Part shown: in pieces, positions 49,814-62,369 of the stretch
Layout of the letters: the number at the start of each line of letters is the position of its first letter
Position numbering within the stretch: the first letter of the stretch is position 1
Assembly (NCBI RefSeq): GCF_900128485.1
Contig: NZ_LT635859.1
Span: forward strand, 328,872-391,240
DNA from: Duodenibacillus massiliensis
GTDB lineage: Bacteria > Pseudomonadota > Gammaproteobacteria > Burkholderiales > Burkholderiaceae_F
Reading direction: 5' to 3'
Length of the DNA stretch: 62,369 nt
Made by a program: the position numbers and the translations under genes
Notes under the pieces: generated by a model
The model's database searches: none
What the model was told of the DNA's origin: nothing
The model's input: only the letters and a program-made list of their open reading frames with translations

Positions 49814-50619
49814 AAGGGGTCATATCCCTTCACCGGAATTTCCGGAAAATCCGGATACCCCACTCCCACGAGATATAGCCCTGCAGCGTCAAAAGTGGGC
49901 GCTGCAGCGGCTCTTTCCTTCGCTTCAAGCACTTCTTTCATCCACTCAGGCTTCTCGCGTCCCACGCCCACGTAAATAAGCGACCCCACGATATTTCGCA
50001 CCATGTGCTGCAAAAAGGCGTTTGCGGTGAGTTCAATGCCGATATAACGGCCTCGACGCACAATATTGATTGCCGTCATCGTGCGCACCGGGGTTGCCGC
50101 CTGACAGTCCGCTGCACGGAAACTTGAGAAGTCGTGTTCCCCGATAAGGCAGGCCGCGGCCTCGCGCATCCTCTCTTCATCACACGGCCGCCACACCCAG
50201 CCCGTGCGCCCGAAATTAACGGCCGAGCGGATCCGGTCGTTCAGAATCCAGTACTGATACGTCCGGCTGCGCGCGGAAAAACGCGCATGAAAACGGTCGT
50301 TTACGGGCACAGCCCAGCGGACCGCGATATCGTCGGGCAAAAAGGTGTTAAGTGCCCTCTCCCAGGAAGTGACCGAACGCTCACAGTCCGTATCAACGTG
50401 CACCACCTGGCCCGTGGCATGCACGCCGGCGTCCGTGCGGCCCGCGCAGATGGTGCCTGCGGGCTTCGTGAGAAACCGCTTTATGGCGCGTTCCAGCACG
50501 TCCTGCACCGTACGGCCGTCAGGCTGCGTCTGCCAGCCGTTATAGTGCGTGCCCGTGTATTCAATACCGAGCGCCGTGCGGAAAGCCGCCTCCGGCGCGT
50601 AGGGAAAGCGTTCCTGCAT
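49810..50619 (-). CDS. truA: tRNA pseudouridine synthase A
   Basis: Makes pseudouridine at 38-40 of the tRNA anticodon arm. 269 residues with catalytic Asp in ICAGRTDAGVHATGQVVH and FLQHMVRNIVGSLIYVGVG. The length is normal. It follows fimV by five bases on the same strand, the usual betaproteobacterial order fimV-truA. Confidence 0.97.
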   Translation of the reverse strand: MQERFPYAPEAAFRTALGIEYTGTHYNGWQTQPDGRTVQDVLERAIKRFLTKPAGTICAGRTDAGVHATGQVVHVDTDCERSVTSWERALNTFLPDDIAVRWAVPVNDRFHARFSARSRTYQYWILNDRIRSAVNFGRTGWVWRPCDEERMREAAACLIGEHDFSSFRAADCQAATPVRTMTAINIVRRGRYIGIELTANAFLQHMVRNIVGSLIYVGVGREKPEWMKEVLEAKERAAAAPTFDAAGLYLVGVGYPDFPEIPVKGYDPF

Positions 50620-50624
50620 CCGGC

Positions 50625-52463
50625 TTAAACGCGGCGCACGGCGTCAAGAAGGCGCTCTGCGGCGGCTCTCTGCTCGTCCGTGCCGAAGAGCTTTACTTCA
50701 CGCAGAAGTTTCTCGGCATCGTCCGGGAACCCCGCATCAATCTTTTGCTGGGCAGCGGCGAGCTTCACGGCCATCGCTTCGGGGCTGTGACCGTCCTCTG
50801 CCGTTACCGGGGTTTCCGCGGAAAAAGCCTCGGGCGGCTGAATCTGCATCCCCGAAGACGTGCTCGTGAGCGTAAAGGGACGGGGCTCTTCTTCAGGCGC
50901 CTGAGCCTTCACTTCGGGCCTAACTTCGGCAGCAGGCTGCGGAGCCGCAGTTTCAGGTGCCTTCGTCTCAGAAGCCGTCACCGTTGCCGCTGCGGCAGCG
51001 GTTGCGGTCGCTGTTGCGGCGGGCGCTGCGTCAAAGCCGCGCTTTGCCGCAGCGTCAGCTTCCATGCGCTTCGTGAGCAACTCATCCATGTTCCGCACCT
51101 GCTGCGGCGTGGCCGGTTCCGGCCTCAGAAAGCGGATGGTGCGCTCGGTGCGTTCAAACTCTTCCTTTTCCTTCTTGCGGCGCCAGACAAACCAGCCGCC
51201 TGCGGCAGCAGCGATGAGAATAATCAAGAGGCCCCAGAGCCAGGCGCTGCTCCCTTCTTCCTCGGTCTTTTCTTCAACCGCGGGTTGCGCCGTCATTACA
51301 GGCTGCGTGTCGGCCGCGGGTTCGGTCTTGGTTGCCTGCGTTTGAGCCGGTTTTGTTTCTTCAGGTGCTGCTGCGGGCGTCAGAGCTTCAGTCGTTGCTG
51401 CCGCTGTCGCAGCGGCAGCCGCAGCAGCTGCGGCCGGAGCCGCCGTTTCAGGCTTTGCTTCAGGCGCCGCGGGCTTCATGGGCTCAGCGGGTTTGACAGC
51501 GGGCTTTTGAACCTCAGCCGCCGGTTTCTTCGGCGTCCAGGCAATGCGGGCTTGCTTCATGCGCTGATGCGCACGGTTCAAGTTTCGTGCCGAGGGGGCC
51601 TTACGCATATCCGCATTAGGCGTCACATGCACAAGGCACCAGGCAACGTCGGTGCCGACGGCATCGACCTGCGCCTGTGTGGGCTCCTTTAAGCGGGCAC
51701 CGGGTTTAAGCCCGCTGATACGGCCGTTTTTAAAGGCAGCAGGGTTGCGGCGGATCAAAGCCACCAGCACTTCTTCGGTACGCGCCCCCTCATAGCGCGG
51801 CACCAAGAGGTTGGCAATCGACCACATCGTCATGCCGGGCTTCACGATAATGGGATCGGCGAGCGTGTACTGCGGCTTATTGGTTGTGGTCTTCGCGGAA
51901 GCGGGTTTCACTTGAGGCTTTGCCTTCACCGTTTCGCGCTTAGCGGGTGCGGGTTTTGCGGCAGGTTCTGCCTTCTTCGTTTCAACCGAGGGCATGGCGG
52001 CCGTTGACGGGAGTTTCCCTGCCGAGGGAGCAGCCTGCTTTGTCTGCGCCTGAGCTGTCGCCATGGGCGCTGCGGCCGGAGCCGGCGCAACTGCCGGTTC
52101 CAGGCGGATGCGGTAGTACTTGGCGGAGAGTTTGCCGCCGTCGTTAAGTTCCACAATGAGCGGGAAGTCCCGTGAGGTCACGGGCTTTTCGCTTTTAATG
52201 CGGACAACCCAAGGGGACTTACTTTCAAGCGTCAGTTCCAGGCCCGTGTCGGCCGCAAGCGGCTTCTTGCCGATGCGGTCATAAGTTGCTTCGGGCGCAA
52301 GACGAACCACCAGGGGCTCGACCTTGGGATCGACATTGTTGACGGTAAGCCGCGCCGACAGGGGCTCATTTAAACGGGAAGTCACGGAAAGCGTGCCGAG
52401 GTCTGCGGCCTGAGCCGAAAAACCGATCGCCGCCAGAAGTGCTGCTGCAGCCGTCAATCGCAT
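50625..52463 (-). CDS. fimV: FimV-like peptidoglycan-binding/TPR protein
   Basis: 612 residues. A signal peptide (MRLTAAAALLAAIGFSAQAA) is followed by the FimV N-terminal domain (LGTLSVTSRLNEPLSARLTV), a low-complexity Ala/Pro/Lys stretch, a LysM-like region (IIVKPGMTMWSIANLLVP at about 215), a second Ala/Glu/Pro linker, one membrane helix (AWLWGLLIILIAAAAGGWFV at about 420) followed by basic residues, and a C-terminal TPR-like helical end (AEKLLREVKLFGTDEQRAAA). FimV organises type IV pili and polar assembly. AGGATTGAT precedes the ATG at 52463. Confidence 0.88.
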   Translation of the reverse strand: MRLTAAAALLAAIGFSAQAADLGTLSVTSRLNEPLSARLTVNNVDPKVEPLVVRLAPEATYDRIGKKPLAADTGLELTLESKSPWVVRIKSEKPVTSRDFPLIVELNDGGKLSAKYYRIRLEPAVAPAPAAAPMATAQAQTKQAAPSAGKLPSTAAMPSVETKKAEPAAKPAPAKRETVKAKPQVKPASAKTTTNKPQYTLADPIIVKPGMTMWSIANLLVPRYEGARTEEVLVALIRRNPAAFKNGRISGLKPGARLKEPTQAQVDAVGTDVAWCLVHVTPNADMRKAPSARNLNRAHQRMKQARIAWTPKKPAAEVQKPAVKPAEPMKPAAPEAKPETAAPAAAAAAAAATAAATTEALTPAAAPEETKPAQTQATKTEPAADTQPVMTAQPAVEEKTEEEGSSAWLWGLLIILIAAAAGGWFVWRRKKEKEEFERTERTIRFLRPEPATPQQVRNMDELLTKRMEADAAAKRGFDAAPAATATATAAAAATVTASETKAPETAAPQPAAEVRPEVKAQAPEEEPRPFTLTSTSSGMQIQPPEAFSAETPVTAEDGHSPEAMAVKLAAAQQKIDAGFPDDAEKLLREVKLFGTDEQRAAAERLLDAVRRV

Positions 52464-52663
52464 ATCAATCAATCCTGCTGTGGAAACCAAAGTTCAAAGG
52501 GTTACTGCCCAATTTGCGTATTATGCACTGCCGACACGGCTGAAGGCATATTTTTTCAAGAGCTGTCCGCCGCTGTCGTTTCGTTTTCCTCTCCTTCGTT
52601 TTTGCTGAAAAACTCCGCACACAGTGCCGCCTTACATTGTTCGGCAAAAAGTTTCTTCCACAG

Positions 52664-52752
52664 AAGAATTTCGTCCGCTTTTCTGCGCGAAATTCTTTTA
52701 TAAAAGAATTTCAGGCGGTTTCAGCCCAAAGATTCTTCCATACAAGAATTTC
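52664..52752. promoter_or_regulatory. Cluster of AAGAATTTC repeats with a 24-bp palindrome upstream of fimV
   Basis: AAGAATTTC occurs at 52664-52672, 52704-52712 and 52744-52752, and its reverse GAAATTCTT at 52689-52697. The copies at 52689-52712 form a perfect 24-bp palindrome centred on TTTTATAAAA. The spacing of the three direct copies is 40 bases each. It lies in the 395-base spacer between ihfB and fimV, upstream of fimV. It looks like a multi-site operator or a structured element; no known regulator is assigned. Confidence 0.65.
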
Positions 52753-52770
52753 AGACAACAGACGCAAAAG

Positions 52771-52820
52771 AAAACGGCTCCCGAAGTTTTTCCCCGAAGG
52801 GAATCTTCGAAAGCCGTTTT
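52771..52820 (-). terminator. Terminator downstream of ihfB
   Basis: On the minus strand AAAACGGCT ... AGCCGTTTT (9 pairs) encloses CGAAG / CTTCG and is followed by CTTTTG. It lies 39 bases past the ihfB stop and ends the aromatic supra-operon. Confidence 0.72.
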
Positions 52821-52858
52821 GTGCGAATGAGCGCAGTATTCGCCAACTGTGTCAGGTG

Positions 52859-53170
52859 TTACTTCAGAGGAGTCACACCTGCTCTGCCGTTCATCGCGTC
52901 ACGGATTTCTTTGCCTGCACGGAAGTGCGGAACAAATTTGGCCGGGACTTCGACGGTGGCCCCCGTCCGGGGGTTGCGGCCCGTGCGCGCTGCACGGTGC
53001 TTCAGACTGAAGCTGCCGAAACCGCGGACTTCGACGCGAACGCCGTGGCTCATCGCGCTGATGATCGTTTTGAGGATCTCGTTGACCGCCTCGTCGGCCT
53101 CGCGGTTGGTGAGGCTGCCGTGGCGGGCAAAGACCTTGTCGATCAGTTCAGACTTGGTAAGAGCCCGCAT
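52859..53170 (-). CDS. ihfB: Integration host factor, beta subunit
   Basis: A DNA-bending protein. 103 residues, starting MRALTKSELIDKVFARHGSL, with the arm and body motif EVRGFGSFSLKHRAARTGRN and the tip KFVPHFRAGKEIRD. The start at 53170 is supported by the family N-terminus. It follows rpsA by 14 bases, the usual cmk-rpsA-ihfB order. Confidence 0.95.
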   Translation of the reverse strand: MRALTKSELIDKVFARHGSLTNREADEAVNEILKTIISAMSHGVRVEVRGFGSFSLKHRAARTGRNPRTGATVEVPAKFVPHFRAGKEIRDAMNGRAGVTPLK

Positions 53171-53184
53171 AGACACCACCCTGA

Positions 53185-54870
53185 TTACTTCTGTTCAAGC
53201 TTAGCCTTGAGCAGAGCACCAAGGTTGGTGGTACCGGCGGAAGCGTCGCTGTTGACGCGGTCAAGCACTTCGCGGGTCTGCGCGGCATCCTTAGCCTTGA
53301 TGGAGAGCTGGATGGAGCGGTTCTTACGGTCAACGCTGATGATGAGGGCTTCAACCGTGTCACCGACCTTGAGCTGCGTCGTGGCGTCTTCCACGCGTTC
53401 GCTCGAGATTTCGGAAGCACGCAGATACCCTTCGGTGTCGTCACCGAGGTCGATCGTGGCGCCCTTAGCATCAACGGCCTTCACCGTGCCTTTGACGAGC
53501 GTACCCTTTTCATGGGTGCCGGCAAAGGAAGAGAACGGATCACCGCCCAGCTGCTTGATGCCGAGGCTGATGCGTTCGCGGTCGGTGTCGATTGCGAGAA
53601 CCATGGCTTCGACTTCGTCGCCCTTCTTGTACTTACGGACGGCTTCTTCGCCCGGTTCGTTCCAGGAGAGGTCAGAGAGGTGCACGAGGCCGTCAATGCC
53701 ACCGGGCAGTCCGATGAACACACCGAAGTCGGTGATGGACTTGATCTGGCCCTTCACCTTGTCGCCCTTCTTGTGGCTCTGGTTGAATTCCTGCCAGGGG
53801 TTGGCCTTGCACTGCTTCATGCCGAGAGAAATACGGCGGCGTTCTTCGTCGATGTCAAGAACCATGACTTCGACTTCGTCACCCAACTGCACAACCTTCT
53901 TCGGATCGACGTTCTTGTTGGTCCAGTCCATTTCGGAGACGTGCACCAGGCCTTCGATGCCGCTTTCGATTTCAACGAAAGCACCGTAGTCGGTGATGTT
54001 GGTGACCTTGCCGAAGAGACGGGTGCCCTGCGGATAGCGGCGGGCAATGCCGATCCACGGATCTTCGCCCAACTGCTTGAGGCCCAGAGAAACACGGTTC
54101 TTTTCCTTGTCGAACTTAAGAACCTTGGCTTCGATTTCCTGGCCGACCTGAACGACTTCGCTCGGGTGACGCACGCGGCGCCAGGCGAGGTCGGTGATGT
54201 GCAGAAGGCCGTCGATGCCGCCCAAATCAACGAACGCACCGTAGTCGGTGATGTTCTTGACGATACCCTTGACAACGGCGCCTTCGGCGAGCGTTTCAAG
54301 GAGCTTGGCGCGTTCTTCGCCCATGCTCGCTTCCACAACGGCGCGGCGGGAGACAACAACGTTGTTGCGCTTACGGTCAAGCTTGATGACCTTGAATTCG
54401 AGGGTCTTGCCTTCGTACGGGGTCGTATCCTTCACAGGACGCGTATCGACCAAGGAGCCCGGCAGGAACGCGCGGATGCCGTTGGTCATGACGGTGAGGC
54501 CGCCCTTCACCTTCCCGGTGATGGTGCCGGTGACGAGTTCGCCGGATTCCAGAGCCTTTTCGAGGTTCATCCAGGCCGCAAGGCGCTTAGCCTTGTCGCG
54601 GGAGAGGATCGTATCGCCGTAGCCGTTTTCAACCGATTCAATTGCCACGGAAACGAAGTCGCCGGGCTGCACGGTCACTTCACCGCGGTCATCCTTGAAT
54701 TCTTCGATGGGCACATAAGCTTCAGACTTAAGGCCGGCGTTCACGACAACGTAGTTGTAGTCAACGCGGACAACTTCAGCGGTGATGACTTCGCCCTGGC
54801 GCATTTCCTGCTTGGCAAGGCTCTCTTCAAAGAGCTGGGCAAAAGATTCGGTATTGGTATTGTTGGACAT
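53185..54870 (-). CDS. rpsA: 30S ribosomal protein S1
   Basis: 561 residues with six S1 domains in a row, for example [40 protein letters not shown] and [20 protein letters not shown]. It holds mRNA on the 30S subunit. No Shine-Dalgarno is found in the 20 bases before the ATG (sequence CATTAACGATTTAACTAC), as in E. coli rpsA, where S1 represses its own translation. It follows cmk by 120 bases. Confidence 0.97.
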
Positions 54871-54990
54871 GTAGTTAAATCGTTAATGATCTCGCCCGTC
54901 CGGGAGTCTGAAATGTCAGACCGATGGGGCGGTGTTGCTTTAAATTTCCCTAAAAGCCCCCGGCGGCCTTTAAGGCTGAAAAACGGTTCT

Positions 54991-55647
54991 TTACCGGGGA
55001 AGCTTCCGCCACCACGCCATGATCTGATCCACGGTCTCTTCAATCGTGAGATCCGAGCTGTCTAGGATGTGCGCATCCGCTGCCGGCACGCAGGGCGCAA
55101 CCGCGCGTTCGCGGTCCCGACGGTCGCGTTCGGCCAAATCCCGGGTAAGATTTGAAAGGTTAGCAGAAATTCCTTTTTCAATCAACTGGTTATATCTGCG
55201 CATTGCGCGCGCTTCAGGCGTAGCCGTCAAAAAGACCTTTAAAGGGGCATCAGGAAACACCACGGAAGCCATGTCGCGGCCGTCCGCCACCAGGCCCGGG
55301 GCCTGTGCGTAGCGCCTCTGCAGGTCAAGTAACTCAGCCCGTACCGAGGGGTAGGCCGCCACAACGCTTGCGGCAAGCCCCACCTCTTCGGTGCGGATGG
55401 CTTCGGTCACATCCGCGCCGTCCAAAACAATTCGGCCGCCATTAAAGACGGGATGCATGGTTCGGGCCTCTTCAGCGCAGACCGCCTCGTTTTTCAGGTC
55501 GCCCCCCGACTTCATGGTTCTTAAGGCGCAGAGGCGGTAAAGCGCGCCGCTGTCGAGATAATGAAACCCGAGCTTTGCGGCAACACGCGCTGACACGGTG
55601 CCCTTGCCGCTTGCCGTAGGTCCGTCGATTGCAATAACGTCAACCAT
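54991..55647 (-). CDS. cmk: Cytidylate kinase
   Basis: Phosphorylates CMP and dCMP. 218 residues, P-loop IDGPTASGKGTVSARVA near the N-terminus, VADGRDMASVVFPDAPLKVF as the CMP-binding part. The start at 55647 (MVDVIAIDG) fits the family; an upstream extension is not conserved. It lies between aroA and rpsA in the same direction. Confidence 0.96.
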   Translation of the reverse strand: MVDVIAIDGPTASGKGTVSARVAAKLGFHYLDSGALYRLCALRTMKSGGDLKNEAVCAEEARTMHPVFNGGRIVLDGADVTEAIRTEEVGLAASVVAAYPSVRAELLDLQRRYAQAPGLVADGRDMASVVFPDAPLKVFLTATPEARAMRRYNQLIEKGISANLSNLTRDLAERDRRDRERAVAPCVPAADAHILDSSDLTIEETVDQIMAWWRKLPR

Positions 55648-55676
55648 CGTTTTTACTACCCGATGCCCCACGGGCA

Positions 55677-56981
55677 TCACTTTGAGTGAATTAACCGGAA
55701 AAAATCAGTGAAATAGGCCGGATAGGTCTTTGCGGTGCAGCCCGGATCGAGAATCACGGTTGTGACACCCACCGTCGCCGCCAGCGAAAAGCTCATCGCC
55801 ATGCGGTGGTCATCATAGGTGGCAACCGTCACTTTTTCGGGAAGGGGCTTCACGCCGCGGCTCACTTCAAGCCAGTCCGGGCCTTCGGTGACTTCAGCGC
55901 CGAATTTGCGCATTTCGGTTGCCATCGCGTGAATGCGGTCCGTTTCCTTCACGCGCCAGGAGCCGATGCCGGTCAACCGCACCTTCCCCCGCGTTTTCAG
56001 CGCCATCGGCACGAGCGTCATGGCGGCGTCCGGGATGAGCGTACAGTCCGCGTCAATCCCCTTGAGAATGCCGTCTGCCGGGGCCGAGGCCTCAATGAAG
56101 TTTTCGCCCTTCACAATCCGCGCGCCCATCATTTCCAATAGGTCCGCAAAAGCCGCGTCCCCCTGAAGCGCATTTTTCCCGACCCCCTCAACGCGCACGG
56201 GACCGCCCGCCAAAGCGCCTAAAGCGAGGAAGTAACTTGCACCCGAGGCGTCGCCCTCCACGGCGTACTGTTCTACCGCACGGTATTGCCCCGGCGTCAC
56301 GAGAAAGCCGTCGGGCAGTTCCGTCACCCTGACGCCGAACGCGGCCATCATGGTAGTCGTGATTTTGATGTAGGGGCGGCTGATGAGCTCTCCCTCAATC
56401 ACGATTTTGAGGCCTTCGGCAGGGGCTATCAGCGGCGAAATGATAAGGAGCGCCGTCAGGTACTGACTTGAGACGTTGCCTCGGATATGCACCACGTTGC
56501 CGCGCGGCTTCACCGGTGAAAACCGAAGCGGCAGAAAACCCTCATTTTGTTCGCAGGTGATCTCAGCACCAAGTTCCCGCAGGGCTGCCAGGAGGTCGGC
56601 AATCGGGCGCTCGCGCATGCGCTCGATGCCGTCAATACGGTAGTTGCCTTCACTGAAAGCCAATGCTGCCGTCAGGGTTCTTGCCGCAGTGCCCGCGTTT
56701 CCAATAAAAAGATCCGCGGACTTCACCGGGAAAAATCCCCCGCAGCCCGTGACGGTGCAGGCATCGTCCTTCACATCCACCGCAACGCCCAAAAGCCTCA
56801 GGCTTTCGATCATGCGTTCCGTATCGTCGGCCCGCAACAGCCCCGTAAGCGTTGTTCTCCCGTGCGCGAGCGCCGCAAGGATGAGCGCCCGGTTGGAAAT
56901 GGACTTGCTGCCAGGGAGCCGCACGGTGCCCGAGGCAGCGGTAACGGCCGGTACGGTGAGTTCAGGCGGAAAAACTTTCAT
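55677..56981 (-). CDS. aroA: 3-phosphoshikimate 1-carboxyvinyltransferase (EPSP synthase)
   Basis: Sixth step of the shikimate pathway. 434 residues: PGSKSISNRALILAALAHG (PEP/shikimate binding), GNAGTAARTLTAALAF, and DDHRMAMSFSLAA near the C-terminus. The active-site form GNAGTAARTL is of the glyphosate-sensitive class I type, judged from motif only. It follows tyrA by nine bases. Confidence 0.97.
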   Translation of the reverse strand: MKVFPPELTVPAVTAASGTVRLPGSKSISNRALILAALAHGRTTLTGLLRADDTERMIESLRLLGVAVDVKDDACTVTGCGGFFPVKSADLFIGNAGTAARTLTAALAFSEGNYRIDGIERMRERPIADLLAALRELGAEITCEQNEGFLPLRFSPVKPRGNVVHIRGNVSSQYLTALLIISPLIAPAEGLKIVIEGELISRPYIKITTTMMAAFGVRVTELPDGFLVTPGQYRAVEQYAVEGDASGASYFLALGALAGGPVRVEGVGKNALQGDAAFADLLEMMGARIVKGENFIEASAPADGILKGIDADCTLIPDAAMTLVPMALKTRGKVRLTGIGSWRVKETDRIHAMATEMRKFGAEVTEGPDWLEVSRGVKPLPEKVTVATYDDHRMAMSFSLAATVGVTTVILDPGCTAKTYPAYFTDFFRLIHSK

Positions 56982-56990
56982 GGCTCTCCT

Positions 56991-57854
56991 TTACTTCTTG
57001 GCGGGCACCTGAACGGTGCGGCGGATGTGGCTTGCGCGCGAGAAGATTTCAGTGAGCGTTTCGGCGTCCCCGGTGCGGATTGCTTCGTGAAGAAGTGCAA
57101 GTTCGGCCTGAACGTTTTCCAGGCTCTCAAGGAGCGCCCGTCGGTTGGCCAGACAAATATCGCGCCACATTACGGGACTGGAAGCCGCAATGCGCGTGAA
57201 GTCTCTGAAGCCAGCGCCCACAAAACGGAATTTTTCATCAGCTTCCGGGGTTTTGGCCATCGCGTCCACGAGCGCATAGGCCAGCACGTGCGGCAGGTGA
57301 CTTACCGCCGCAAAAATCCGGTCGTGCGTTTCAGGCGTCATCCGGAATAGTTTCGCCCCCACGGCTTCCCAGGCTTTTTCCCAGAATGCCACGGCCTCTA
57401 GATTCATGTCATCCGTGGGCGTTGAAATCACCTTGGTCCCCGAAAAGAGCGCGCTGTCGGCGTATTCAACACCGGGCATTTCGCCCCCAGCAATCGGATG
57501 CACCGGCGCGTAGCGCGAGAACCGTTCTCCCAAGGCTTTCCGGGCCGCGGCAATCACACCGCACCGGGTGGAGCCGACATCGGTCACCCAGGCCTCCTGC
57601 CGCATGGCTTCGGTAATCTCAGCAAACACCCCTTCCATCGCGAGAACCGGAACGGCAACCAAAATGCAGTCGGCATCAGACACAGCGTCGGCCACTTTTG
57701 CCGTTGCTCGGTCAGCAATTCCGAGGCTCACCGCTTTTTCTGCGGCACCCATGGAAATATCACAGGCCGTGACGGCGTCAACGACACCGGCCTTTTGAAA
57801 AGCCCAGGCGGCCGATCCCCCGATTAGGCCCGTTCCGATTAACGCAAGACGCAT
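56991..57854 (-). CDS. tyrA: Prephenate dehydrogenase
   Basis: Oxidises prephenate to 4-hydroxyphenylpyruvate for tyrosine. 287 residues: NAD motif IGTGLIGGSAAWAF at 5-18, VTDVGSTRCGV and HPIAGGEMPGVEYAD for substrate binding. A stand-alone TyrA without a chorismate mutase domain, as usual in Betaproteobacteria. It follows hisC by 14 bases. Confidence 0.95.
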   Translation of the reverse strand: MRLALIGTGLIGGSAAWAFQKAGVVDAVTACDISMGAAEKAVSLGIADRATAKVADAVSDADCILVAVPVLAMEGVFAEITEAMRQEAWVTDVGSTRCGVIAAARKALGERFSRYAPVHPIAGGEMPGVEYADSALFSGTKVISTPTDDMNLEAVAFWEKAWEAVGAKLFRMTPETHDRIFAAVSHLPHVLAYALVDAMAKTPEADEKFRFVGAGFRDFTRIAASSPVMWRDICLANRRALLESLENVQAELALLHEAIRTGDAETLTEIFSRASHIRRTVQVPAKK

Positions 57855-57868
57855 CGCCCGTCTCCGCC

Positions 57869-58984
57869 TTAACTAAGCCCGAGCGCTTTGCGCGCGGCCT
57901 GAAAGGCTTCAATAAAGCGCGCGTTTTCCCGGGCGGTTCCCACGGACACCCTGAGCCAGTCAGGAAGCCCATAGCTTTTCACCGGCCGCACGATCACACC
58001 GCGCTTTAAAAGTTCGGTATTAAGTTCCGCGGTTTTGGGACCGGTCTGCGCAAGCACAAAGTTGGCGGTTGTCGGCAGGTAACGGATCTCCTGCTCCTTA
58101 AAGAAGGTTTCAAGCGTTGCGACGCCCGCGCGGTTTTCCTTGTAGACGCGCTCCAAAAACGCGGCGTCGTCAATGCAGGCCGCGGCCGCAGCCTGCGCGG
58201 CCGTATTCATGTTAAAGGGCGGCCGGATGCGGTTAAGCATTTCAATGAGCGCGGGCTGCGCAAGTGCAAAGCCGGATCTCAGGCCGGCAAGCCCATAGGC
58301 CTTTGAGAACGTCCGCGTCACAACGACGTTTGCATACTCTTTCACCCATTTCAGAGAATCAGTTCTCTCTTCAGGCGCGAGGTAATGGCAGTAGGCTTCG
58401 TCCAAAACCACAATGCAGTCGCGCGGGATCTTTGCCAAAAACGCATCAATCGCGCTTTCGGTTAAGGCAAGCCCCGTGGGATTGTTGGGATTGGTGATAA
58501 ACACGAGCCGCGTTGTCGCGTCAACGGCTGCGGCAATGGCGTCTAAATCCACTGCAAAGTCTTTGGCAGGCACGCACACGCAGCGTGCACCGTTTTCCTG
58601 TGCGGAAAGCTCATAAACGGAAAAAGAGTACTGCGAGTAGACGCAGCTTGTTTCAGGCGTGAGCACCAGACGGGCAATGAGGCCCAGGATCTCGTCTGAT
58701 CCGTTACCGCCGATCACCCAGTCGGGCGTGAGGCCAAAGTGCTTTGCCACCGCCTCACGAAACACACGGGCGTTCCCATCGGGGTAGCGGGAGACTGACG
58801 TCATCACCGCTTCCACGGCTTTTCGCGCGCTCTCGGGCATCCCCAGGGGATTTTCGTTACTCGCAAGCTTCACAATTTCGTTGAGTTTGAGACCGTATTC
58901 CTTGGCGGTCTCTTCGATGGGTTTGCCCGCCACATACGGGGAAATCGCGGCAATGTGGGGCTTTACTTTCAATGCGTCATTCAT
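57869..58984 (-). CDS. hisC: Histidinol-phosphate/aromatic aminotransferase
   Basis: A PLP-dependent transaminase of the HisC branch. 371 residues: NENPLGMPESARKAV, GNGSDEILGLIARL, LVFITNPNNPTGLAL, the PLP lysine in TRTFSKAYGLAGLRSGFALA. In this operon it probably also aminates aromatic precursors (phenylpyruvate and hydroxyphenylpyruvate), as the pheA/tyrA neighbours suggest. It lies 35 bases after pheA. Confidence 0.94.
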   Translation of the reverse strand: MNDALKVKPHIAAISPYVAGKPIEETAKEYGLKLNEIVKLASNENPLGMPESARKAVEAVMTSVSRYPDGNARVFREAVAKHFGLTPDWVIGGNGSDEILGLIARLVLTPETSCVYSQYSFSVYELSAQENGARCVCVPAKDFAVDLDAIAAAVDATTRLVFITNPNNPTGLALTESAIDAFLAKIPRDCIVVLDEAYCHYLAPEERTDSLKWVKEYANVVVTRTFSKAYGLAGLRSGFALAQPALIEMLNRIRPPFNMNTAAQAAAAACIDDAAFLERVYKENRAGVATLETFFKEQEIRYLPTTANFVLAQTGPKTAELNTELLKRGVIVRPVKSYGLPDWLRVSVGTARENARFIEAFQAARKALGLS

Positions 58985-59019
58985 GTTCTTTCTCCCTGAT
59001 TTTTTTCCTGTTGCCGGAC

Positions 59020-60117
59020 TTAATAATCTTTGGCCTGCGGGTAGGAGCCGAGCACCTTAAAGAAACTCGAAACTTCCTTCATTTCCGCCAGAGCCTGCGC
59101 GACCTTGGCGTCTGTAGCGTGTCCTTCCACATCCACAAAGAAGTTGTAGTCCCAGGCGCCGTTTCTTGCCGGGCGGCTCTCAAGCCGCATCATCGATACG
59201 CCGTTTTTCTCCAGGGGCTCGAGCGCATGAAAGAGTTGCCCCGCGCGGTTGGGAACCGAAAAGACGACACTCGTTTTGTCGCTCCCGGCACTTCCCTTAG
59301 CCGCCACCGCGTGCCCGAGCACCAGAAACCGCGTGCGGTTGCGGGGATCGTCCTGAATACCGGCCGAAACAATCTGTAGCCCATAGAGTTCCGCGGCGCG
59401 CGTTGCGGCAATCGCCGCCATCTTCGGATTTTTGGAGGCCTCAAGCGCGGCCTCCGCATTACTTGCAGCCGGAATGGTTTTAACGCCCGGCAGGTGCGTG
59501 CCGAGCCACGCGCGGCACTGCGCCAAAGCCTGCGGGTGCGCCGAGACCACTTCAATGTCTTCTTTTTTCCCTGTGAAATTCATGAGGTTGTGCGCAATCG
59601 GAATGTGCACTTCCCCGATAATGGATAAGGGTGAGGAAAACAGAAGGTCCATCGTGCGCGTCACGGTCCCCTGGGAGCTGTTTTCCACGGGGACGACGGC
59701 GTAAAGCGTACGGCCGGATTCGGCCGAATGAAAGACTTCGTCAATACTTTCGCAGGGGCGCGCCTCGATGTTGCTTCCGAACTGCTTTAACACCGCCATT
59801 TCGGTGAAGGTCCCCTGGGGGCCCAGATAAGCAACCGACGGCCGGGCTTCGAGCGCCCGGCACGCCGACACAATCTCAAGGTAAAGCGTTGAGAGAACGG
59901 AGTCCGGCAAAAGGCCGCCCAGCCGGCGGTTTTCCGCGAGAGCCCGCTCCACCACCTCACGCTCACGTTCGGGGCGGTAGACGGGGGCCGTTCCCTTGGC
60001 TTTACCGACGGATTGCGCCAACTGCGAGCGCCGCACGATGCAGCCGACGATTTCGCGGTCCACGGCGTCGATTTCTTTTCTCAGGCGCTCAATTTCCTGT
60101 GTGTTTTCTGCTGTCAT
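59020..60117 (-). CDS. pheA: Chorismate mutase/prephenate dehydratase (P-protein)
   Basis: A bifunctional enzyme of phenylalanine synthesis. 365 residues: chorismate mutase AroQ-type (about 1-90; IERLRKEIDAVDREIVGCIV), prephenate dehydratase (about 95-275; AYLGPQGTFTEMAVLKQFG and ENSSQGTVTRTMDLL), and a C-terminal ACT domain with the ESRP motif (about 315) that binds phenylalanine for feedback control. It follows serC by 24 bases. Confidence 0.97.
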   Translation of the reverse strand: MTAENTQEIERLRKEIDAVDREIVGCIVRRSQLAQSVGKAKGTAPVYRPEREREVVERALAENRRLGGLLPDSVLSTLYLEIVSACRALEARPSVAYLGPQGTFTEMAVLKQFGSNIEARPCESIDEVFHSAESGRTLYAVVPVENSSQGTVTRTMDLLFSSPLSIIGEVHIPIAHNLMNFTGKKEDIEVVSAHPQALAQCRAWLGTHLPGVKTIPAASNAEAALEASKNPKMAAIAATRAAELYGLQIVSAGIQDDPRNRTRFLVLGHAVAAKGSAGSDKTSVVFSVPNRAGQLFHALEPLEKNGVSMMRLESRPARNGAWDYNFFVDVEGHATDAKVAQALAEMKEVSSFFKVLGSYPQAKDY

Positions 60118-60141
60118 CGGCTGCTGTCCCTTGGTCTTGGA

Positions 60142-61221
60142 TTATCCGTGCCGCGCGGCAAAGACGGTCATGAAATTGGCAAGAGCCTGCGCTGCCTCCT
60201 TGGGCTGCGCGTTGTAGAGCGACGCGCGGATGCCGCCCGCAAGGCGGTGGCCCTTAAGGTTGGTGAGCCCGGCGTCCGCTGCCTCTTTCACAAAAAGCTC
60301 CGTGAGCGCTTCTTCCGCGAGCGTAAAGACCACATTCATGCGGCTTCTTGCCTGCGGGGCAATGGTGTTGATATAAAAGCCGTCACTCTTGTCGATCACG
60401 TCATAAATGAGGCCTGAGCGCTCTTTGGCGCGGCGGTCCATTTCGGCAATGCCGCCTTCTTTTTTGAGCCACCGCGTCACAAGACACGCCATGTAAACCG
60501 CAAAGACGGGCGGCGTGTTGTAGAGGGAATCGGCCTTGGCGTGCACGGCGTAGTTGAGCATCGTGGGGCAGGATTCCGGGGCGAGGCCCAGAAGGTTTTT
60601 GCGGACAATGACAACGGTAAGGCCCGCCGGACCGAAGTTTTTCTGGGCGCCCGCAAAGACCAGAGCGTGCTTGGCAAAATCAATCGGGCGCGACAGGAAA
60701 TTGGAACTCACGTCGCTTACCAGAGGCACACAGTCCGGCACCGGCGGAATGTAGTTAAATTCCAGGCCGTTTACGGTCTCGTTCTGGCAGTAGTAGAGGT
60801 AGGCCGCGTCGTTGGGGACCTTCACGACGTCCGCGGGCGGCACGCCGTGACCGTAGTCACTCGTGATCACATCCACGTGGCAGAACTTGGCAGCTTCGGT
60901 GGCGGCCTTCTTGGACCAGACGCCGTTAACGATATAAGTGGCTTCCGCAGCGGCTCCGAGAAGATTCAGAGGAACCATTGCAAACTGCAGGTGACCGCCC
61001 CCCTGCAGAAACAAAATATCGTGCGTTTCAGGGATTGCGAGGAGCTCTCTGAGGTTCGTCCGGGCTTCTTCATGAATCGCCGAATAGGTGGCCCCGCGGT
61101 GACTCATTTCGAGAATACTCATCCCCTGCCCGTGAAAGTTCGGCAGTTCACGCGAGGCTTCTTCCAGAACCTCCAGCGGCAGCACCGCCGGGCCCGCTGA
61201 GAAGTTATACACACGGTTCAT
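60142..61221 (-). CDS. serC: Phosphoserine aminotransferase
   Basis: Makes phosphoserine (and the pyridoxal precursor). 359 residues: NFSAGPAVLPLEVLEEA, MSHRGATYSAIHEEAR, PLP lysine in FAGAQKNFGPAGLTVVIV. It is first in the aromatic supra-operon as seen here; the upstream gene is normally gyrA, but an iscB gene ends 27 bases away instead. Its ribosome site (GCGGAA) is weak and lies next to the hairpin at 61229-61270. Confidence 0.96.
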   Translation of the reverse strand: MNRVYNFSAGPAVLPLEVLEEASRELPNFHGQGMSILEMSHRGATYSAIHEEARTNLRELLAIPETHDILFLQGGGHLQFAMVPLNLLGAAAEATYIVNGVWSKKAATEAAKFCHVDVITSDYGHGVPPADVVKVPNDAAYLYYCQNETVNGLEFNYIPPVPDCVPLVSDVSSNFLSRPIDFAKHALVFAGAQKNFGPAGLTVVIVRKNLLGLAPESCPTMLNYAVHAKADSLYNTPPVFAVYMACLVTRWLKKEGGIAEMDRRAKERSGLIYDVIDKSDGFYINTIAPQARSRMNVVFTLAEEALTELFVKEAADAGLTNLKGHRLAGGIRASLYNAQPKEAAQALANFMTVFAARHG

Positions 61222-61228
61222 AGAAATT

Positions 61229-61270
61229 CCGCGAGGAAACCCGCGTCTTCAGACGCGGGAGGAATCGCGG
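61229..61270 (-). repeat. Subterminal hairpin at the iscB-serC junction
   Basis: Inner arms CCCGCGTCT (61240-61248) and AGACGCGGG (61251-61259), outer arms CCGCGA (61229-61234) and TCGCGG (61265-61270). The iscB stop codon (61249-61251) sits in the loop, and the serC start is eight bases from its edge. It has the look of the terminal palindromes of IS200/IS605-type elements, and could also affect serC translation. Confidence 0.65.
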
Positions 61271-62369
61271 CCCTCCTTTCTCAGTTCAGTTAAAAACATC
61301 TTTCGCTTCTCAAGAAGCGAAAGTTTCTTGTAGGAAATACCGGCAGAAATCTTTGTACCGTTCAGACGGCGCACATCGAATGCACCCGAGGAGCGTCTGC
61401 CAAAAATAAAGCCGACTTCCCCTTTGCACAGCACCTTGTCAAAGAGCCTGAAGCCGTGCACTAGGTACGGAGCCTGATGGCGCTTGCGCACACCGCCTTT
61501 GAGAATCGTCAGCTTGTGGATCTGGCGATTGTGGCGGCGCGTCTGTTTCTGAAACAGGTATTCGCCCCGACGTTTTGCGTCGAGGACGCCAGCAATGCAG
61601 AAAGCGTCCGCGCAATGCGTCTTCGGCAAGCCCGCGACGATGCGCTTGTGTTTGGTCAGATACCCGTAGGCATTCGTGACAGGCAATTCGGGATGGCGCT
61701 CGCGCAGGCGGTTGAGCACCGTCCAACGCATGATGCCCATGAAAGTCTCTGCCCTGAAAGAAGCGCCGCGCCGGGGACTGAACTGCTTCAACTTGCCTGC
61801 GTGATACGCCTTGTGGCACGCCTCGCACAGCGTGATGAGGTTGCCCGGCGCGTCGCCTCCCGTTTTCCGACTCTCAATGTGATGCACGTTGAGAATCAGA
61901 TCTTTCGATCTGCCTTTGCAGGCTTGGCAAACGTGACCGTCGCGGAACAGCACATATTCGCGCACGTTCCAAAAGCCAAGCTGCTCGCCCTGCTGATAGC
62001 CTTCGCCTTCAATCTCCGGGTTTTTGATCTTCTGCATATCGAACGCCGCCGTTTCTACGGTAACGGAGGTGACGGGCAGAAGACGCAAAACAGCCTCGAT
62101 GCGCGAAAGATGGGCACGGATGCGGTTTTCAACGGACGGCGCAAGCCAACCCTTGTGCTTTGATCGAACGCGATTGTCAAAACGCGGCGCACGGCAGCGG
62201 GTCTTGCGGTTGCGTCGGGCGCGGCGAAGTGCCAAGCGATCCGAGAGCAAGCCCGTCACGTCCTGCCGCAGTTCGACCTCGGAAGCCAACAACTCTTCCT
62301 TGGCGGTCGTTGCGCTCAGGCCGACGTGCTTGTAGCCCGCATCCACACCCAAGGTGATCGGCTGCTTGG
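61249..62369 (-). CDS. iscB: IscB (RuvC/HNH RNA-guided nuclease), N-terminus beyond the window
   Basis: At least 373 residues visible, still open at the window edge (KQPITLGVDAGYKHV). Numbering from the TTG at 62352: RuvC-I Asp4 in GVDAGYKHVG, arginine-rich bridge helix RLALRRARRNRKTRCR at 39-54, RuvC-II Glu100 in VTVETAAFDM, HNH domain with CQAC (142-145), HH at 157-158, Asn171 and CEACH (176-180), and RuvC-III THCADAF with Asp249. All catalytic residues are present. IscB is the transposon-encoded ancestor of Cas9 and uses an omega RNA encoded upstream of the gene, here outside the window. The N-terminal PLMP domain is also outside. The target-adjacent motif is unknown. It lies between the usual position of gyrA and serC. 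Confidence 0.92.
   Translation of the reverse strand, partial: KQPITLGVDAGYKHVGLSATTAKEELLASEVELRQDVTGLLSDRLALRRARRNRKTRCRAPRFDNRVRSKHKGWLAPSVENRIRAHLSRIEAVLRLLPVTSVTVETAAFDMQKIKNPEIEGEGYQQGEQLGFWNVREYVLFRDGHVCQACKGRSKDLILNVHHIESRKTGGDAPGNLITLCEACHKAYHAGKLKQFSPRRGASFRAETFMGIMRWTVLNRLRERHPELPVTNAYGYLTKHKRIVAGLPKTHCADAFCIAGVLDAKRRGEYLFQKQTRRHNRQIHKLTILKGGVRKRHQAPYLVHGFRLFDKVLCKGEVGFIFGRRSSGAFDVRRLNGTKISAGISYKKLSLLEKRKMFLTELRKEGRDSSRV

Follow-up and report, generated by a model that had tools for sequence, protein, structure and literature searches.

The location of an iscB gene directly before serC in Duodenibacillus massiliensis raises the question of how a host gene is expressed when an element abuts its start codon. 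It also bears on how an IscB element has its guide transcribed, the variable part of the guide being located in flanking host DNA, and on how elements of this kind are maintained. The window, that is, the whole stretch of 62,369 nucleotides that was analysed, corresponds to G000:C20:328872-391240 of a 2.35 Mb genome. The frame at 61249-62369 on the minus strand covers iscB from RuvC to the C-terminus and was identified by profile search as NCBIfam NF040563 guided_IscB (285.6 bits vs a cutoff of 175), with Pfam RRXRR and HNH both matched in the same frame. The RuvC and HNH catalytic motifs described in a sequence-only reading of this DNA were readable in the window translation and supported by these profile matches; translation, profiles, and alignment together revealed RuvC I-III, the bridge helix, and HNH with the catalytic residues by which an IscB is recognized. 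A single N (L009:3242) marks the end of the window, and full copies of the element carry about 174 nt more there that code for the PLMP domain; this N is probably an assembly gap that hides the N-terminal PLMP part of the window iscB. The window copy, which had been called intact-looking from the sequence alone, is therefore only a candidate for an intact gene; the PLMP domain (QPLMP) was present in sister copies. Seven of the twelve sister copies read (L011, L012, and L015-L019) were open without N or stop, and all four searched motifs were found in six of the seven, with L018 lacking the RuvC-III motif. A full-length sister copy was aligned with the solved IscB chains 7xht, 8csz, 9k2z, and others over a span that includes the PLMP, RuvC-I, bridge helix, RuvC-II, HNH, and RuvC-III motifs.

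The junction with serC was examined base by base, with all features on the minus strand. The serC gene (60142..61221; phosphoserine aminotransferase, TIGR01364/NF003764) was aligned to NF003764 from residue 1, and its ATG (61219-61221) was found to directly abut the last base of the element (61222), in agreement with the abutment proposed from sequence. The ATG and the next base form the tetranucleotide ATGA (61218..61221), a target or TAM-like sequence that follows every right end found in this genome. Upstream of the ATG are (i) an A/T-rich 7-nt spacer, AATTTCT (61222..61228); (ii) a 42-nt terminal hairpin (61229..61270), supported by predicted fold and by covariation in relatives and composed of the outer stem CCGCGA/TCGCGG, 5-nt internal loops, an 8-bp inner stem, and a 4-nt loop; and (iii) an element-borne Shine-Dalgarno sequence, AAGGAGG (61272..61278), inside the last codons of iscB. 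The iscB stop codon TGA (61249..61251) was located in the terminal hairpin, as had been claimed, and there in the loop; the proposed closeness of the hairpin to the ATG also held, with the outer stem ending 7 nt rather than eight bases before it. According to the fold prediction, the distance from AAGGAGG to the serC ATG is 50 nt when linear and 8 nt with the hairpin folded. The element splits the gyrA-serC pair, with a distance of 109 nt on the gyrA side, and serC is followed by pheA (59020..60117; chorismate mutase/prephenate dehydratase), hisC (57869..58984), tyrA (56991..57854; prephenate dehydrogenase), aroA (55677..56981), and cmk (54991..55680). The suggestion that the element had replaced the natural gyrA-serC junction was rejected, since it was inserted between the native Shine-Dalgarno sequence and the ATG, the left flank retains that Shine-Dalgarno sequence, and the serC site was empty in 9 of 9 other genomes of the genus examined. 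No element end was found at serC in these nine genomes by exact motif search, and in most of them the ATG or GTG was immediately preceded by a purine-rich stretch resembling a Shine-Dalgarno sequence.

An omega RNA had been predicted to lie just outside the window, and it was found there: an Rfam search detected the HEARO/omega RNA family RF02033 at L009:3271-3510 (136.5 bits), just past the window end. Because this RNA lies outside, the scan of window positions 50000-62369 gave no Rfam match. The RF02033 match starts with model position 1 and coincides there precisely with the left terminus of the element, so the host 5′ leader forms the flank in the guide position. The left end was read by eye to carry an inverted repeat, and subterminal hairpins were present at both ends of the element. 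At least one HEARO RNA was detected in each of 75 of 80 related loci. In Sutterella wadsworthensis (L081:1025-2935), two HEARO RNAs were spaced 1690 bp apart, resembling elements arranged head to tail.

The serC insertion was found to be one of many in this genome. RRXRR matches numbered 25, and a pattern search located 33 right ends, with ATGA after 33 of 33, although the pattern itself included ATGA with up to 3 mismatches allowed (the reversed control pattern gave 0 matches). The same 33 places were contained in the BLAST list; as the BLAST survey scored 40 of 89 first-look candidates, the copy counts are to be read as at least these numbers. By type, 24 right ends were of the iscB type, including that at serC and most of them at start codons, and 9 belonged to a second element kind that shares the last 53 bp. 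The ATG opened an open reading frame of at least 92 codons at 19 of the 24 iscB-type ends and one of 6-25 codons at the other five. Native N-termini were supported for SerC, LepB, NtrC, LolC, SppA, NrdG, and LplT, the profiles of which aligned from within the first residues, and the starts of a histidinol-phosphatase-like and a YdiK-like protein were also profile-supported, at scores below the curated cut-off. At L016 and L018, the downstream protein is matched by its profile from residues 36 and 109 onward, making the true start less sure, while profile search gave no family match for the frames downstream of L014, L021, and L029. As with gyrA and serC, the lepA-lepB pair was split, with 15 nt between lepA and the element, and so was ntrB-ntrC, with 22 nt. 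LepB is essential in Escherichia coli; expression of lepB here thus has to pass the element.

Several copies, including that of the window, hold N at or inside the element, so partial copies are often not real truncations; many of them were at first taken for deletion derivatives, a view that was given up where the copy ends at N. One truncated copy, L027, lacked any assembly gap: its match to the reference was confined to the final 474 bp, with the terminal module kept, before nrdG. At L025:2661-5352, two consecutive iscB-type right ends were found, one before a gene for a binding protein and the other before a YdiK-like gene, the first of the two being cut by N. In copies of this genome that were split by BLAST, the omega RNA and the 3′ part of iscB were 97-99% alike and the 5′ part of iscB mostly 87-95%; possible readings of this contrast are gene conversion, selection on the ends, or assembly chimeras.

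The means of movement was sought in the same genome. No tnpA was found within the iscB element. Nine Y1_Tnp matches were detected in the genome, and eight of these lie next to ends that have 53 bp in common with the right end of the iscB element. In this second element kind (L032-L039 and L018), tnpA lies on the opposite strand in 8 of 9 cases, and no iscB left end was found beside any of them. The second kind is a possible source of transposase, and an IS200/IS605-type transposase from such separate, same-ended elements probably moves the iscB element in trans. The upstream Shine-Dalgarno sequence was present in 0 of 8 examined tnpA-type ends that share the hairpin. With regard to location, 19 of 24 iscB-type ends vs 4 of 9 tnpA-type ends were at starts when the cut-off was 60 codons (P = 0.07, not significant) and 19 of 24 vs 3 of 9 when it was about 90 codons (P = 0.02); this contrast is only suggestive.

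Whether the start-codon location exceeds that expected of ATGA sites was determined in three samples. Some loci share a genome or contig, and the copies in these tests are therefore partly non-independent. Among insertions of this genome with both ends known, 16 of 19 were start-like compared with 129 of 478 non-coding ATGA sites (27%; P = 3.2 × 10−7), the control being ATGA sites outside genes called in 400 kb by a custom gene caller. Here a site was scored as start-like when an open reading frame of at least 60 codons began at the ATG and the upstream frame was closed within 60 codons. The related loci (80 kept of 254) came from Sutterella, Parasutterella, Desulfovibrio, Lachnospiraceae, Methanolobus, and others and represent several phyla. 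Right ends were placed in 69 of the 80 (62 by rule, after which 18 were set or reset by hand) and were followed by ATGA in 56 and ATGG in 13; among the 63 with both ends, 34 were start-like vs 106 of 684 control sites taken from the flanks of the loci analysed (15.5%; P = 2 × 10−12). A phylum-wide search of 398 genomes yielded one further genome above the cut-off (G370), and the second set was therefore drawn from viral_contigs. Of 100 loci, 80 were kept; the automatic rule placed no right end in 32 of these, and removal of 2 duplicates left 46, of which 30 had both ends; 18 of these 30 were start-like by the automatic rule vs 74 of 369 control sites (20%; P = 1.9 × 10−6). The left flanks were then compared. 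A native Shine-Dalgarno sequence of at least 4 nt at the proper distance was present in 26 of 34 start-like insertions of the relatives vs 5 of 29 others and 24% of random positions, and in 13 of 18 vs 4 of 12 in the second set. The difference was small in the D. massiliensis genome (9 of 16 vs 50 of 129 control starts). Judged from these sequences, the element is inserted between the native Shine-Dalgarno sequence and the ATG.

The element-borne module was also followed across relatives. A Shine-Dalgarno sequence of at least 5 nt was present in 40 of 61 unique modules, and for 33 of these 40 the folded spacing to the ATG was 7-12 nt. In the second set, 36 of 46 modules contained one. Among the 69 relatives, the motif fell in all three iscB frames (24, 14, and 5 loci) and, in a single locus (L099), downstream of the stop, while the same search did not find it in 25 of 69. 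This independence of the iscB frame speaks for selection on the nucleotide sequence and not on the protein, and the motif appears to be kept as nucleotide sequence. When sorted by insertion type, the motif was found at 22 of 29 start-like vs 14 of 26 other insertions of the relatives (P = 0.08) and at 16 of 18 vs 11 of 12 in the second set. Being about as frequent at non-start insertions, it is a trait of the element rather than a mark of start sites. Both hairpin stems covary across the relatives. Pairing of the outer stem was, however, among the grounds on which 32 of 42 windows were selected for this comparison, which inflates the signal of that stem. Recognition by the transposase may be the sole reason why the hairpin is conserved. 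Folding with flanks predicted the Shine-Dalgarno sequence to be 18-43% unpaired in 19 contexts of this genome and about 45% unpaired in 42 relatives. Such partial masking implies that initiation may be weak or may need ribosomes that finish iscB. The iscB stop codons lie from 10 nt before to 57 nt after the AGGA core, that is, within the module. At L107, L113, and L116, the target ATGA itself completes the iscB TGA, so that stop and start codons overlap within it; this arrangement points to coupling. Other arrangements were also observed: a distant IscB clade (L174, L180, and L186; about 36% identity) ends before ATGA or ATGG without the upstream Shine-Dalgarno sequence and has GAGG directly before the ATG, an alternative solution, and five copies in one Erysipelotrichaceae genome (RD49; L127, L133, L142, L144, and L146) have no Shine-Dalgarno sequence and end before ATGG.

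We consider it likely that this multi-copy IscB element, placed between the native Shine-Dalgarno sequence and the serC ATG, keeps serC translated by means of its own hairpin-spaced Shine-Dalgarno sequence. Host transcription would run through the guide, the omega RNA, iscB, and the host gene as one message. The 30S subunit would then bind the Shine-Dalgarno sequence of the element with the hairpin looped out, by analogy to T4 genes 25 and 38, or, alternatively, ribosomes would restart after finishing iscB within the module. Insertions of this kind may survive because they do little harm to the host gene and secure expression of the guide and nuclease. For the lineage as a whole, a broader reading, to which we give a little short of an even chance, is that these widespread elements act as removable 5′ leaders: they would dock between the Shine-Dalgarno sequence and the start, take the guide from the leader of the gene, use the promoter of the gene, and repay it with a portable, hairpin-spaced ribosome-binding site. 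The nuclease of each copy would be programmed against the uninserted start region, and host genes, including likely essential ones, would depend on the element.

Other explanations account for parts of these data. A plain preference for ATGA combined with the purging of intragenic insertions, in which starts are merely the remaining ATGA sites and the Shine-Dalgarno-like motif has no role, is consistent with the ATGA or ATGG after every placed right end, with the richness of starts in ATGA (105 of 505 non-intragenic ATGA sites in 400 kb were called starts), and with a motif about as common at non-start insertions. Against it, the non-coding nulls of 27%, 15.5%, and 20% are all exceeded by the observed fractions (16/19, 34/63, and 18/30), and the motif is independent of the iscB frame; we judge the explanation improbable. 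Translational coupling alone, with ribosomes that finish iscB restarting at the nearby ATG and the hairpin serving only as a transposition signal, fits the stops within the module, the TGA that forms part of the host ATGA at L107, L113, and L116, and the predicted masking. The gap-free L027 copy argues against it, as its last 474 bp still stand before nrdG with the module kept, and we regard coupling as the sole route as rather unlikely.

The sequence-only reading had also proposed that the element may have taken over the promoter or ribosome-site control of serC. Its ribosome-site part is likely correct, given the Shine-Dalgarno sequence of the element, while its promoter part gained no support: a scan of two copies for one promoter type, the sigma-70-like, detected none (shuffles averaged 0.4). 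Insertion sequences often carry outward promoters, and an element promoter driving serC would become likelier if the terminator-like matches on the iscB strand near the 3′ end were real; real terminators would also stop read-through. One of them has a 10-pair stem and T run (L009:2195-2172) and another lies at the right end, yet their count of 3 is at chance level (shuffles 2.5 and 3.3), and we judge a promoter brought by the element to be quite improbable. It is very improbable that faulty scaffolding of a repeat-rich assembly created the insertions at serC and elsewhere: many copies, that of the window included, do have N at or inside the element, and several seemingly partial copies end there, but copies without internal N and with both flanks present were found before lepB, lolC, and other genes, and named genomes of other genera display the same arrangement.

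The element is a member of the known IscB/HEARO (OMEGA) family of the IS200/IS605 superfamily (ISC transposons), which it resembles in the PLMP domain of its sister copies, in RuvC with bridge helix and HNH, in an upstream RF02033 RNA that starts at the element end, and in the presence of Y1 transposase in the genome; the subterminal hairpins at both ends and the fixed ATGA flank are likewise those of IS200/IS605 (ISC) elements. IscB is regarded as ancestral to Cas9, and HEARO insertion before ATGA/GTGA was reportedly described by Weinberg et al. in 2009. The anatomy of the module and the start-codon habit appear undescribed as far as we have looked: among the matches listed in a literature search, no title or abstract opening suggested that IscB/HEARO elements reside at start codons or bring a ribosome-binding site with them, and in PMC13180657 the term "start codon" occurs once. 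The DtIsrB nickase has the TAM 5′-NTGA-3′ (PMC9581776), which would cover the ATGA found here, although IsrB differs in being without HNH; "start codon" is absent from the main text of that paper. The ATGA flank is no more than a candidate TAM, and RNA-guided cleavage is a candidate activity. The closest likeness for translation is to the split ribosome-binding sites of T4, where an intervening hairpin shortens the spacing between Shine-Dalgarno sequence and AUG from 22 to 5 nt in gene 38 and from 27 to 11 nt in gene 25 (PMC3014915), compared with a predicted 50 to 8 nt here. The junction at serC thus has a distant Shine-Dalgarno sequence and a hairpin that would bring it near the AUG, according to sequence and fold prediction, with partial masking also predicted. 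It differs from genes 25 and 38 in its longer hairpin and in forming the end of a transposable element, with which it can move to many genes. If start-codon docking is true, host transcription would supply the guide, and the host gene would stay active through the ribosome-binding site that the element carries. The finding gives a testable rule for where such elements settle, and they would represent a natural 5′-leader cassette that moves between genes.
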